The translations under genes and the position numbers were made by a program. A stretch of DNA of 64,000 nt, taken from NCBI RefSeq assembly GCF_900113245.1, contig NZ_FOOQ01000001.1, forward strand, positions 186,001 to 250,000. Reading direction: 5' to 3'. Numbering within the stretch: position 1 is the stretch's first letter; every line of letters begins with the position of its first letter. This stretch comes from Halopelagius inordinatus (GTDB lineage Archaea > Halobacteriota > Halobacteria > Halobacteriales > Haloferacaceae). Under the pieces are notes generated by a model. That model saw only the letters and a program-made list of their open reading frames with translations. It did not search any database and was not told the DNA's origin. This document shows positions 42,411-52,246 of the stretch, piece by piece.

Positions 42411-42440
42411 GTCTCGGAAAATCATGGGACCGCCCGGATT
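42411..42440 (-). repeat. 30-bp direct repeat matching the tRNA-Pro 3' end and flank (copy at 42798-42827)
   Basis: The 30 bases at 42411-42440 are identical to 42798-42827, which cover the downstream flank (17 bases or so) and the last bases of the genuine tRNA-Pro gene. The offset is 387 bases. Such a displaced copy of a tRNA end plus flank is what site-specific integration or a tandem duplication would leave. Confidence 0.85.
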
Positions 42441-42502
42441 GTGAACCGTGCCGAGACCTCACTTCGTTCGGTCTCGTCGGGTTCAAATCCGCGATGCCCC
42501 CA
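42425..42502 (-). repeat. tRNA-Pro 3'-end fragment with fold-back hairpin, copy 1
   Basis: Begins TGGGACCGCCCGGATT like the tRNA-Pro 3' end (one extra base before GAACC), then GAACC, a stem CGAGACC with loop TCACTTCGTTC and GGTCTCG, then GGTTC and ATCC mirroring the T-arm, and ends CCCCCA mirroring TGGG. An imperfect palindrome built from a tRNA end. 66 bases match copy 3 with one mismatch. Confidence 0.8.
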
Positions 42503-42567
42503 CACACCGCGAACTCGCGGGCCTCGCACGCGCTACGCGGTGCTCGGCGGGGAAGTGCGCGTAGAAG

Positions 42568-42627
42568 TGGGACCGCCCGGATTGTGAACCTCACTCGCTC
42601 ACTAACGTTCGCTCGCTGGTTCAAACC
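42568..42627 (-). repeat. tRNA-Pro 3'-end fragment with fold-back hairpin, copy 2
   Basis: Shares TGGGACCGCCCGGATT and GTGAACC with copies 1 and 3, but the middle hairpin differs (CTCACTCGCTCACTAACGTT region) before GGTTCAAACC closes the fold. More diverged than the other copies, 107 bases before copy 3. Confidence 0.75.
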
Positions 42628-42674
42628 GGCCGCTGTTCATTTCTGGCTCCTCACGTGCGTTCGTCGCACAGAAA

Positions 42675-42753
42675 TGGGACCGCCCGGATTGTGAACCGTG
42701 CCGAGACCTCACTCCGTTCGGTCTCGTCGGGTTCAAATCACGGGGTAGACCCA
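42675..42753 (-). repeat. tRNA-Pro 3'-end fragment with fold-back hairpin, copy 3
   Basis: Nearly identical to copy 1 over its first 66 bases, then diverges (ATCACGGGGTAGACCCA), yet still ends with CCCA opposite the initial TGGG, so the outer inverted repeat is kept although the sequence changed. Confidence 0.8.
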
Positions 42754-42811
42754 CGCAGTACCGAGACGCGTCGCTCGGACACGAAGGTCCTCGCTGGGTC
42801 TCGGAAAATCA

Positions 42812-42884
42812 TGGGACCGCCCGGATTTGAACCGGGGTCACGGGCACCCAAGGCCCGAAGTATACCAGGCTAACCCACGGTCCC
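42812..42884 (-). tRNA. tRNA-Pro (UGG)
   Basis: 73-base cloverleaf on the minus strand. Acceptor GGGACCG/CGGTCCC with discriminator A at 42812, T-arm CCCGG TTCAAAT CCGGG, anticodon stem CGGGC/GCCCG around loop CTTGGGT giving anticodon UGG. No intron; CCA not encoded. Three partial copies of its 3' end lie downstream (42425-42753), and a 30-base piece of its end plus flank recurs at 42411. Confidence 0.95.
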
Positions 42885-50133: not shown

Positions 50134-50493
50134 AACGGCCGTCGAGTCGGAGACGTTTCTCGTCGGTACGGGATACACCGAACGGCCGAGGGCGGGTTTC
50201 GTCTCTCGGCGACGGTATCACCTCACCTCTTTTCATCGACCGAGTGCGGACGTCTCTCGTTCTCGGAGGACGCGGATGTCGGCGACGAGAACCGGGCGGA
50301 CGTGAGTCTCGACTCCCGTCGCCTCCATCCTCGACGACTACGGGCACATCGCGCGAGACGGAGCACTCTCTGAACTGCGGTTTTCGTCGCCGTGTAACCC
50401 CATCGAGAGTAAACTGGGCGACGGACAGTCACTCCGAGACCAAACTCTTTAGGTACACCACTTTCACGGATGGGGAACGTCACTCTAGTTAGA
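50134..50493. other. Intergenic stretch without recognisable gene
   Basis: About 360 bases between DUF4112 and the HTH gene. Both strands hold only short basic frames without acidic bias or family motifs. A T-rich run CCTCTTTTC at about 50225 could end the upstream transcript. TTTAGG at 50448-50453 is the likely TATA box of the HTH gene. I see no hairpins or repeats of note. Confidence 0.6.
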
Positions 50494-50823
50494 ATGGCAG
50501 TCAGCCAAGACGGCACTCCCTCCGGGCGTTCGACCGACGACTATCTCGCCGTCCTCGGAGACCCGAACCGGCGAGTCGTGGTCGGAGTCCTCGCAGAGAC
50601 CGACCGTCCGATTTCCATCTCGTCTCTCGCACGAGAGGTCGCCGCGGAGACGCAGAACGCCTCACCCGACGCGAAGATAGCACAGACGAAGCTGTCGCTT
50701 CACCACAACCACCTCCCGAAACTGGACGCCGCGGGCGTCGTCACCTACGACTCCGAAGAGCGTCTCGTCGCCCCGGCCGACGGCTTCGAGACGGCTCTCA
50801 GCGCCGTCGAACTCGCGAACTGA
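50494..50823 (+). CDS. Small winged-helix DNA-binding protein
   Basis: 109 residues. HTH in DPNRRVVVGVLAETDRPISISSLAREV and KLSLHHNHLPKLDAAGVVTYDSEERLV (helix plus wing, about residues 23-96). Haloarchaeal short HTH family related to the ArsR/PadR winged helices, usually transcriptional regulators of unknown signal. ATG 50494 preferred; an in-frame ATG at 50470 lies too close to the TTTAGG box at 50448. Located immediately before the tRNA-His repeat array. Confidence 0.75.
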   Translation: MAVSQDGTPSGRSTDDYLAVLGDPNRRVVVGVLAETDRPISISSLAREVAAETQNASPDAKIAQTKLSLHHNHLPKLDAAGVVTYDSEERLVAPADGFETALSAVELAN

Positions 50824-50966
50824 CTCTCTCTGCGACCGGTCTCTCCGGCTCTTTTCCTCTCCGGCCGCGAGGTTTCCGCTGTGAAAATCGAATCTCGCCC
50901 GCAACTTCGCACTGCTCGGATGCTCGCCGACGCGAGCAATCGCTCACCGAGTGGTCGTCGGAAGAA

Positions 50967-51073
50967 GGTCCGGGTGCGAGAATCGAACCCGGTGCGAGAC
51001 TCGCTACGCTCGTCTCGCGTGATTCGATTTCGACGTCCGGACGTTTCACTCCTCACTTCGTTCGTCGGAAGAC
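50967..51073 (-). repeat. 107-bp tandem unit carrying a tRNA-His 3' end, copy 1
   Basis: Starts with GGTCCGGGTGCGAGAATC and GAACCC, the T-arm and acceptor end of the tRNA-His gene at 51182, then folds back: GCGAGAC, loop TCGCTACGCTC, GTCTCGC, and ATCGAA opposite TTCGAT, TCCGG opposite CCGGA. The unit ends with the flank CACTTCGTTCGTCGGAAGA. Identical to copy 2 except its last base. Confidence 0.9.
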
Positions 51074-51180
51074 GGTCCGGGTGCGAGAATCGAACCCGGT
51101 GCGAGACTCGCTACGCTCGTCTCGCGTGATTCGATTTCGACGTCCGGACGTTTCACTCCTCACTTCGTTCGTCGGAAGAA
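51074..51180 (-). repeat. 107-bp tandem unit carrying a tRNA-His 3' end, copy 2
   Basis: Second copy, 106 of 107 bases identical to copy 1, directly abutting the genuine tRNA-His gene, whose last 24 bases share the unit's start. Spacing 50967, 51074, 51181 is exactly 107 each, so the tRNA end acts as the third register of the array. Confidence 0.9.
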
Positions 51181-51181
51181 G

Positions 51182-51255
51182 GTCCGGGTGCGAGAATCGA
51201 ACCCGCGTCTCAGCCTCCACAAGGCTGAAGGATAGTCCACTACCCTAACCCGGAC
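51182..51255 (-). tRNA. tRNA-His (GUG)
   Basis: 74-base cloverleaf on the minus strand. The extra G at -1 (51255) is encoded and pairs with discriminator C73 (51182). Acceptor TCCGGGT/ACCCGGA, anticodon stem CAGCC/GGCTG with loop TTGTGGA giving GUG, T-arm GCGGG TTCGATT CTCGC. CCA not encoded. Two near-identical partial copies of its 3' end with hairpins follow downstream. Confidence 0.95.
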
Positions 51256-51375
51256 ACGCATCTACAGGTATCCCCGTGCGATTCAAATACGTTACGACTC
51301 CGCGTCGGCGTGTTCGACCGTCGCACACACCCATCGGGACGCTTTTGCCCGCGAGTGCCGTACGTCTCCGTAACC

Positions 51376-51831
51376 GTGGCTATCACGGACAAGATATACC
51401 TCAAGAACCACCGCCAGATTTCGTCGCAACTCGACGTGAACATCCCGAAAGGGGCGTTCAAGGGGGCGACGATGGACGTCCTCTACTCCGGCGACGGCCT
51501 CTCGAAACTCGACGGGGCAACGCGCGACAGACTGCTCGACTTCGCGGAGGACTTCCTCGACCCGAAGAACCCGGACGACCTGTACACGGGTTATCCCGAA
51601 CGCCAGTTCGTCAGATACCTGCTCGAACTCCGCGCGGAGGGCCTGCCCCCGGACGCCATCGTCGACGTGATGAGCGACGACTACATGCTGTACGCGTATC
51701 CGGGCGACGTGCTGTCTTTTCTCGACAACGCGGTCCGAACGCTCGAAGCGGTCGAAACGCTCGCGGGCGTCGAAGGCAACGAGAAGATGGAGCGGAAAGC
51801 CCACAGAGCGAAACAGGCGCTCTCCGGGTAG
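51376..51831 (+). CDS. Conserved haloarchaeal protein (DUF5814-like)
   Basis: 151 residues from GTG 51376 (MAITDKIYLKNHRQ). Conserved blocks: NIPKGAFKGATMDVLYSGDGLSKL (about 22-45), DFAEDFLDP and PPDAIVDVMSDDYMLYAYPGDVLSFLDNAVRTLEAVE (about 95-131). I recall this pattern as DUF5814, partly shared with archaeal helicase C termini; function unknown. Some homologues have Cys pairs where this has NPDD. Convergent with the ribbon-helix-helix gene, one base apart. Confidence 0.75.
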   Translation: MAITDKIYLKNHRQISSQLDVNIPKGAFKGATMDVLYSGDGLSKLDGATRDRLLDFAEDFLDPKNPDDLYTGYPERQFVRYLLELRAEGLPPDAIVDVMSDDYMLYAYPGDVLSFLDNAVRTLEAVETLAGVEGNEKMERKAHRAKQALSG

Positions 51832-51832
51832 G

Positions 51833-52246
51833 TCAGCCCAGTCGGAACGAGGGTTCGTCCGTCTCGCCGGCGTCTAAGTCCTCCAGTTGGATGACCTCCT
51901 CGTCGTCGTCTTCGAGTTGCTCGCGGAGGTAGTTGACGTACCGTTTGTGCTCTTCGAGCTGTTCGCGGAGGTGGTCGGCTTCGAGTTCCAGACGCTCGTG
52001 TTCGCGGACGAAGCTCTTCGGCACCTCCACCGTCGGCGGGAACGACTCCGCTTTCTCGTCGCCGCCCATCTCTTCGAGTTCGTGTTCGGGGACCACCTGC
52101 ACCTGACCGTCGTGGGCAACGAGCGTATCCACGTAGTCTCGGAAGACCGCGGAAAGCGAGATATCTCGTTCTTCGGCGATCTCTCTGAGCGTCTCGAAGG
52201 CGTCCTCGTTGACGCGAAACGAGATCGTCTTGTTCTTGTTGCCCAT
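51833..52246 (-). CDS. Ribbon-helix-helix protein with coiled-coil tail
   Basis: 137 residues. N-terminal RHH DNA-binding unit MGNKNKTISFRVNEDAFETLREIAEERDISLSAVFRDYV (1-39): a beta strand then two helices, as in CopG-like regulators. A linker and a heptad coiled coil (ERLELEADHLREQLEEHKRYVNYLREQL, about 88-115) follow, which would strengthen the dimer. CATTAAGTA box at about 52277-52285. Likely a repressor; target unknown. Confidence 0.85.
   Translation of the reverse strand: MGNKNKTISFRVNEDAFETLREIAEERDISLSAVFRDYVDTLVAHDGQVQVVPEHELEEMGGDEKAESFPPTVEVPKSFVREHERLELEADHLREQLEEHKRYVNYLREQLEDDDEEVIQLEDLDAGETDEPSFRLG

Follow-up and report, generated by a model that had tools for sequence, protein, structure and literature searches.

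Hairpin units copying tRNA 3' ends form arrays behind haloarchaeal tRNA genes and may be cargo-less DNA cassettes

Directly behind a transfer RNA (tRNA) gene for histidine in Halopelagius inordinatus lie two near-identical units of 107 bp, each carrying a copy of the 3' end of that tRNA. They are located in a stretch of 64,000 nucleotides (nt) that was analysed as a whole and is referred to here as the window (RefSeq assembly GCF_900113245.1, contig NZ_FOOQ01000001.1, positions 186,001 to 250,000). The units belong to a haloarchaeal cassette family with a median length of about 119 bp, whose members stand in arrays directly behind tRNA genes and are characterized by their composition, their distribution, the covariation of their arms, the movement of their modules, their precise gain or loss and stems that are not RNA-like. 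Our preferred reading, put forward tentatively, is that they are cargo-less DNA cassettes recombining via the tRNA 3' end, in their working somewhat like the attC sites of integrons; within it, we infer recombination between core copies, with a folded strand as partner and a tyrosine recombinase involved.

The original prediction, made from the letters of the DNA, described the tRNA-His locus (Table 1) as two units differing at one base, with the tRNA itself keeping the 107 register. The sole mismatch is indeed a C at 51072, where the other copy has an A, as does the tRNA-His trailer at 51179. The register is borne out by a block of 37 nt, made up of 25 nt from the tRNA 3' end and 12 nt from the trailer, which is present three times, at 50955, 51062 and 51169. 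The same 107-nt copies can also be placed at 50955-51061 and 51062-51168, and both directly adjoin tRNA-His. The predicted fold-back hairpin is recovered as well, GCGAGAC pairing with GTCTCGC, ATCGAA with TTCGAT and TCCGG with CCGGA; the folding energy of the unit, calculated for the tRNA strand, is -39.9 kcal/mol, with z = -4.96, and none of 200 dinucleotide shuffles is equally stable. The proposed layout stands as to its components, a tRNA-His end copy and a hairpin, but not as to their order, the tRNA strand having the hairpin first with the copy as its 3' arm, and the copied stretch, rightly assigned to the tRNA-His end, is refined at its boundary, which is set at the start of the T-loop with 2-4 nt from the T-stem included. 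An assembly duplicate is unlikely, given the one-base difference between the copies and the similar arrays in independently sequenced genomes. In an Rfam scan of positions 50400-51900 (E <= 1), the tRNA is the sole match, and the units match no covariance model.

Across the family, a unit read on the tRNA strand opens with a spacer, continues with a 5' arm matching the T-loop in reverse complement and with an apical hairpin, and closes with the tRNA 3' end; lengths are typically about 100-200 bp around the median of 119 nt. The copied block, or core, starts 1-5 nt before the T-loop (mode 2; 132 units) and mostly ends 0-2 nt beyond the tRNA. Because the spacer holds a T-loop-complementary arm together with the apical hairpin, the tRNA-sense strand folds onto the core copy. 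The best 8-nt 5' arm has no or one mismatch in 74/112 units, against 0/112 shuffled ones, and the arm varies in step with the tail: the pairs are A-T (53), G-C (30) and others (8) at T-loop position 4, and A-T (73), C-G (6), T-A (4) and G-C (2) at position 6. Rarer T-loop sequences are likewise matched by their 5' arms. The units are devoid of genes and cargo, the longest ATG frame in any of them comprising 58 amino acids.

The distribution of the units was assessed in six haloarchaeal genomes from four GTDB families, five of them represented by their 30 best-scoring tRNA loci each. The own 3' end (last 18 nt, at most three mismatches, within 450 nt downstream) is repeated behind 87/190 tRNA genes, with per-genome tallies of 16/44, 21/30, 11/30, 9/28, 15/28 and 15/30, and an array behind a tRNA gene comprises 1 to 4 units. 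As controls, tails of other tRNAs match in 0.3-1.1% of pairs in the same genomes, the upstream sequence holds an own-tail copy for 0-1 gene per genome, and of the 49 tRNAs from non-halophilic representatives of the phylum, 1 has such a copy downstream. A family of tRNA-derived elements, one of the options that the original prediction had raised, is thereby supported far beyond the tRNA-His case, and the absence from other genomes that would have spoken against it does not apply. Within H. inordinatus, a second match (L003) has a like design behind a different tRNA end. Among the tRNAs taken from an Rfam search of this genome, the own last 20 nt are copied downstream of initiator Met (iMet), elongator Met, Phe, Ser and His, and further of Arg (three isoacceptors), Lys (two), Val (two) and Asp (two), with three copies at tRNA-Pro (in the window) and two at tRNA-Leu. 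Contig C1 contains 42 GNA hairpins with a stem of at least 3 bp, 13/42 of which lie at most 600 nt downstream of a tRNA. Among ten strong GNA hairpins elsewhere on C1, those at 324624 and 947016 are tRNA units that integrated elements have moved away from their tRNA; the majority of the remaining strong ones lack unit architecture. Outside the window, at G000:C1:157350-157560 (contig coordinates), GNA/tandem-GA hairpins are flanked by direct repeats, arranged in tandem and about 50 nt long, which resemble haloarchaeal ribosomal RNA promoters (TTCGAA...CCCTTAA); this hairpin class may accompany duplications at other stable-RNA loci too.

Parts of units recur in other sequence contexts. Apical modules are shared across isotypes and families (105 cross-isotype pairs over threshold, 0 for shuffled sequences), as are whole spacers (225 cross-isotype matches at E <= 1e-6). 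In the case of genome G124, the Lys-TTT and Arg-CCG spacers are 92% identical over 77 nt, with core and distal arm differing. Another such example is given by Val and Leu units, whose spacers share 86% identity over 115 nt. Entire units are gained or lost precisely: Haloferax denitrificans has one unit where H. sulfurifontis has none, the flank being 97% identical from the first base past the core, and several Halorubrum pairs show whole-unit differences with conserved flanks beginning right after the core. Haloferax arrays are composed of two spacer types in shuffled combinations, and most units within one array have differing spacers. The recent duplication suggested originally therefore suits the near-identity of the tRNA-His pair but not the family, in which array spacers mostly differ and the block usually stops 0-2 nt past the tRNA. 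The main rival to our reading is passive homologous recombination, in which template switching at tRNA genes under heavy transcription would create the repeats, and ordinary homologous recombination and gene conversion would then multiply, shrink and disperse them with no dedicated enzyme, the hairpins being a by-product or retained as replication or transcription barriers. The tRNA-His pair, identical tandem units in other genomes (L025) and right-hand repeats of 26-60 nt at some loci do resemble plain tandem duplication, and repeat-mediated deletion is documented in haloarchaea, in Haloquadratum through repeats of 10-20 bp (PMC3119063). However, modules and spacers recurring across isotypes and families, in a strand-specific design, are not expected from random template switching, and gene conversion between isotypes would bring the wrong tail along. 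We consider this passive origin somewhat unlikely, though a serious competitor.

The folding features of the units differ from those of tRNAs. Counted with G-U pairing disallowed, the single mismatches in unit stems are G.T in 44 cases and A.C in 42, whereas 159 tRNAs of the same genomes have 27 and 0; in the spacer alone the counts are 16 and 21. As stems maintained at the RNA level should show mainly G.U, those of the units are not RNA-like. Folding nevertheless depends on the strand: on the tRNA strand, tandem GA/GA occurs 160 times versus 12 for TC/TC, and GCGNAGC is found 70 times in sense versus 14 in antisense. Predicted loops are GNA (77), GNYA (19) and GNRA (4), with 0 UUCG. In DNA, loops of the GNA and GNNA kinds have unusual stability, as in the d(GCGAAGC) mini-hairpin, which is employed to stabilise DNA aptamers. 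We infer that the tRNA-sense strand, in the form of single-stranded DNA, either has been under selection in the units or gave rise to them. The regulatory 3' trailer that had also been envisaged would act at the RNA level instead, as a back-up terminator or processing signal with a stem-loop and a T-rich tract per core copy, insulating tRNA transcripts. Core copies and tRNAs do share a T-rich following sequence (3.4 and 3.5 T in 8 nt), and in Haloferax volcanii a hairpin is able to end transcription (PMC7237163). A T4 run, the sign checked for archaeal T-stretch terminators, follows only 16% of units, a frequency like that behind the tRNAs themselves (15%). Yet A.C is tolerated in the stems as often as G.T, the loops show no preference for GNRA or UUCG, the types stable in RNA, the units have no Rfam match, and a terminator needs no exact copy of its own tRNA end. 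An RNA-level trailer thus appears improbable.

Tyrosine-recombinase integrative elements occupy tRNA ends that also anchor units. In H. inordinatus, integrated elements of 31 kb at tRNA-Gly(TCC) and 10.8 kb at tRNA-Ala(CGC) sit between the tRNA and the hairpin unit, leaving the unit beyond the right attachment site (attR); because insertion occurred at the tRNA, the unit core did not divert them. This bears on the view that the units are decoy landing pads, copies of attachment (att) sites drawing tRNA-targeting viruses or plasmids off the tRNA gene. The copies match the sequence used by such integrases, and tRNA-His is a proven hot spot, with partial tRNA-His copies 22-46 kb off in five relatives and an island at tRNA-His in Haloquadratum (PMC3119063), but both elements inserted at the tRNA regardless of extra copies and a decoy has no need of a covarying 5' arm, so that we hold this view to be very improbable. 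At L011, L018, L019 and L100, element-like sequences at tRNA-His contain, about 20-40 nt past the left attachment site (attL), a stretch closely resembling the anticodon stem of tRNA-His (TCAGCCTT..AAGGCTGA), possibly an integrase binding site. At L439 (G000:C1:441044-449400), the iMet tRNA and a hairpin unit are followed by an element of about 8 kb whose tyrosine recombinase is XerA-like. About 8.25 kb on lies a partial iMet tRNA, broken before the T-loop by sequence with a GNA hairpin. The units might also be scars, decayed attR ends of former integrative elements in the usual sense of a tRNA remnant; their spacing of about 80-130 nt, hairpin design, covarying arm, common modules and tandem arrays are unlike independent decay, and no unit-like sequence was found in viral contigs, searched with exact module patterns, or in plasmids and phages, searched by blastn with the window unit, making this the least probable explanation considered. 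Virus or plasmid cargo was rejected on the grounds of these searches too.

Under our preferred reading, the folded form would be single-stranded DNA, of the lagging strand or exposed by transcription, and not RNA. The hairpin would offer the core as a recombination partner, as folded attC does for the integron, and recombination between core copies would allow cassettes to be gained, lost and reordered. An Xer/integrase-type tyrosine recombinase would most likely assist, many of them already taking tRNA 3' ends as att sites here; the near-identical tRNA-His pair would represent a recent tandem duplication or a double insertion of one cassette. Several points weigh against this proposal. No recombinase is linked to the cassettes: H. 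inordinatus has eight distinct tyrosine recombinases (nine matches), and none of its integrases stands out as a cassette enzyme; among three that were profiled, the best scores are 215 against a cut-off of 220 for the NCBIfam archaeal XerA model and 107 against 265 for the integron model. Repeats of about 21 bp could equally give precise gain or loss via homologous or slippage recombination. GNA loops and (tandem) G.A pairs fit RNA as well, and simple stem decay would likewise equalise G.T and A.C. The outer hairpin pairs weakly, the probability being about 0.85 in the T-loop and dropping to 0.3-0.5 over the acceptor part; attC-like two-stem pairing over the whole core is therefore not claimed, because good pairing is confined to the T-loop/T-stem part. 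Finally, since the cassettes carry no cargo, their benefit is hard to see. A fuller version, an integron-like system on haloarchaeal tRNA genes in which gene-less single-stranded DNA hairpin cassettes are inserted and exchanged by a recombinase reading the folded tRNA 3' end, the arms coming to match each new tRNA, we judge unlikely. If true, the proposal would define a widespread, seemingly undescribed class of DNA elements behind about half of the tRNA genes of an archaeal class, fitted in sequence to each tRNA and obeying the folding rules of single-stranded DNA. It would connect tRNA att sites, integron-like hairpin recombination and haloarchaeal genome plasticity, account for tRNA remnants currently treated as annotation noise, and be testable in Haloferax volcanii; under passive recombination too, the units keep a natural and sensitive trace of the recombination that tRNA genes undergo.

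The window holds a second array, at tRNA-Pro, in which the apical region of cassette 3 is 98% identical to that of cassette 1 (Table 1). The core variant of this array, GTTCACAATC (a T-loop copy plus one C; window positions 42425-42811), also occurs at L263, L270, L347, L378 and L379, thus covering at least five isotypes in four genomes, behind differing apical modules. Its extra C could be a constant extrahelical base, reminiscent of the extrahelical bases of attC. In a minority of units, type 2, the copy is limited to the final 13-14 nt of the tRNA and the apical GNA hairpin has the opposite strand sense; such units are found at L121, L158, L243, L251, L340, L351, L362 and other loci, and at L362 (Arg-TCT) the type-2 copies are repeated four times with a 75-nt period. 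For the gene adjoining the tRNA-His array, the best relatives are those of Halobellus and Halogeometricum, as suits a haloarchaeal genome.

Table 1. Features of the two tRNA-anchored arrays, in window coordinates.
Feature	Position	Strand	Remarks
tRNA-His (GTG), array anchor	51182..51255	-	ARAGORN 51181/51182-51254; encoded G-1 at 51255; Rfam RF00005 49.7 bits
Repeated core, original inside tRNA-His	51181..51204	-	T-loop to discriminator plus T-stem GGG; direct repeat
tRNA-His cassette 1, tRNA-proximal	51074..51180	-	107 nt
Cassette 1 spacer	51138..51180	-	contains weak first hairpin (TTCTTCCGACGAACGAAGTGAGGAGTGAAACGTCCGGACGTCG)
Cassette 1 5' arm	51130..51137	-	AAATCGAA; near-complement of T-loop copy TTCGATTC
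Cassette 1 apical module	51095..51129	-	TCACGCGAGACGAGCGTAGCGAGTCTCGCACCGGG: 7-bp stem, tandem G.A, GC pairs, GTA triloop
Cassette 1 3' arm	51074..51094	-	exact copy of tRNA-His 3' end
tRNA-His cassette 2	50967..51073	-	107 nt; 1 mismatch to cassette 1, at 51072
Cassette 2 5' arm	51023..51030	-	
Cassette 2 apical module	50988..51022	-	
Cassette 2 tRNA-His 3' end copy	50967..50987	-	
tRNA-Pro (TGG), second array	42812..42884	-	ARAGORN
tRNA-Pro cassette 1	42675..42811	-	137 nt; extra C in core copy (TTCACAATCCGGGCGGTCCCA)
tRNA-Pro cassette 2	42568..42674	-	107 nt; core variant as in cassette 1
tRNA-Pro cassette 3	42425..42567	-	143 nt; core variant as in cassette 1

Several known systems share features with the haloarchaeal units. 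Like repetitive extragenic palindromic (REP) sequences, bacterial interspersed mosaic elements (BIMEs) and miniature inverted-repeat transposable elements (MITEs), they are short, palindromic, gene-less intergenic repeats in many copies; unlike these, each is fitted to the tRNA that it follows and keeps a constant place and orientation. The profile of the Y1 transposase (Y1_Tnp, PF01797) has no match in the H. inordinatus genome, with controls positive, and a Y1/REP transposase was rejected as mobiliser for this reason. With tRNA-targeted integrative elements, served by haloarchaeal integrases of the XerC/D type and present at several tRNAs of H. inordinatus, they share the tRNA 3' end as direct-repeat core. 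Those elements, however, are kilobases long, bear an integrase and leave a single distant partial tRNA, whereas the units are gene-less, about 100 bp long and arrayed, with a hairpin and a covarying arm and no integrase inside. In the open-access literature (subscription papers and supplements lay outside the search), no account of the units was found apart from the tRNA remnants of Haloferax gibbonsii LR2-5, reported with their counts directly beside full tRNA genes (PMC7921747). In all probability these remnants are such units, taken for leftovers of annotation; the passages on them in that paper describe no hairpin, arrays, covariation or family.

The comparison with integrons is the closest in working. 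Archaeal integrons are reported from nine phyla, in a paper in which the term Halobacter* is absent. The attC motif GTTRRRY (R') stands at the core start of 0/91 units, a complementary AAC..GTT triplet pair is found in 30/91, and membership among integron attC sites was rejected, given the former count and the lack of cargo genes. The haloarchaeal units are anchored on tRNA genes and attC cassettes on attI beside intI, and the gene-less units have arms that match the local tRNA instead of a common attC consensus. An attC site is an imperfect palindrome of a single strand, with apical variability and strand-selective imperfections (PMC8946536); the variable apical structure and the strand-selective imperfections have their counterpart in the haloarchaeal units, where they are shown computationally alone. 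Both systems, moreover, consist of tandem cassettes that come and go as complete units, and in both the cassette closes with an imperfect palindrome that a single DNA strand forms by folding.
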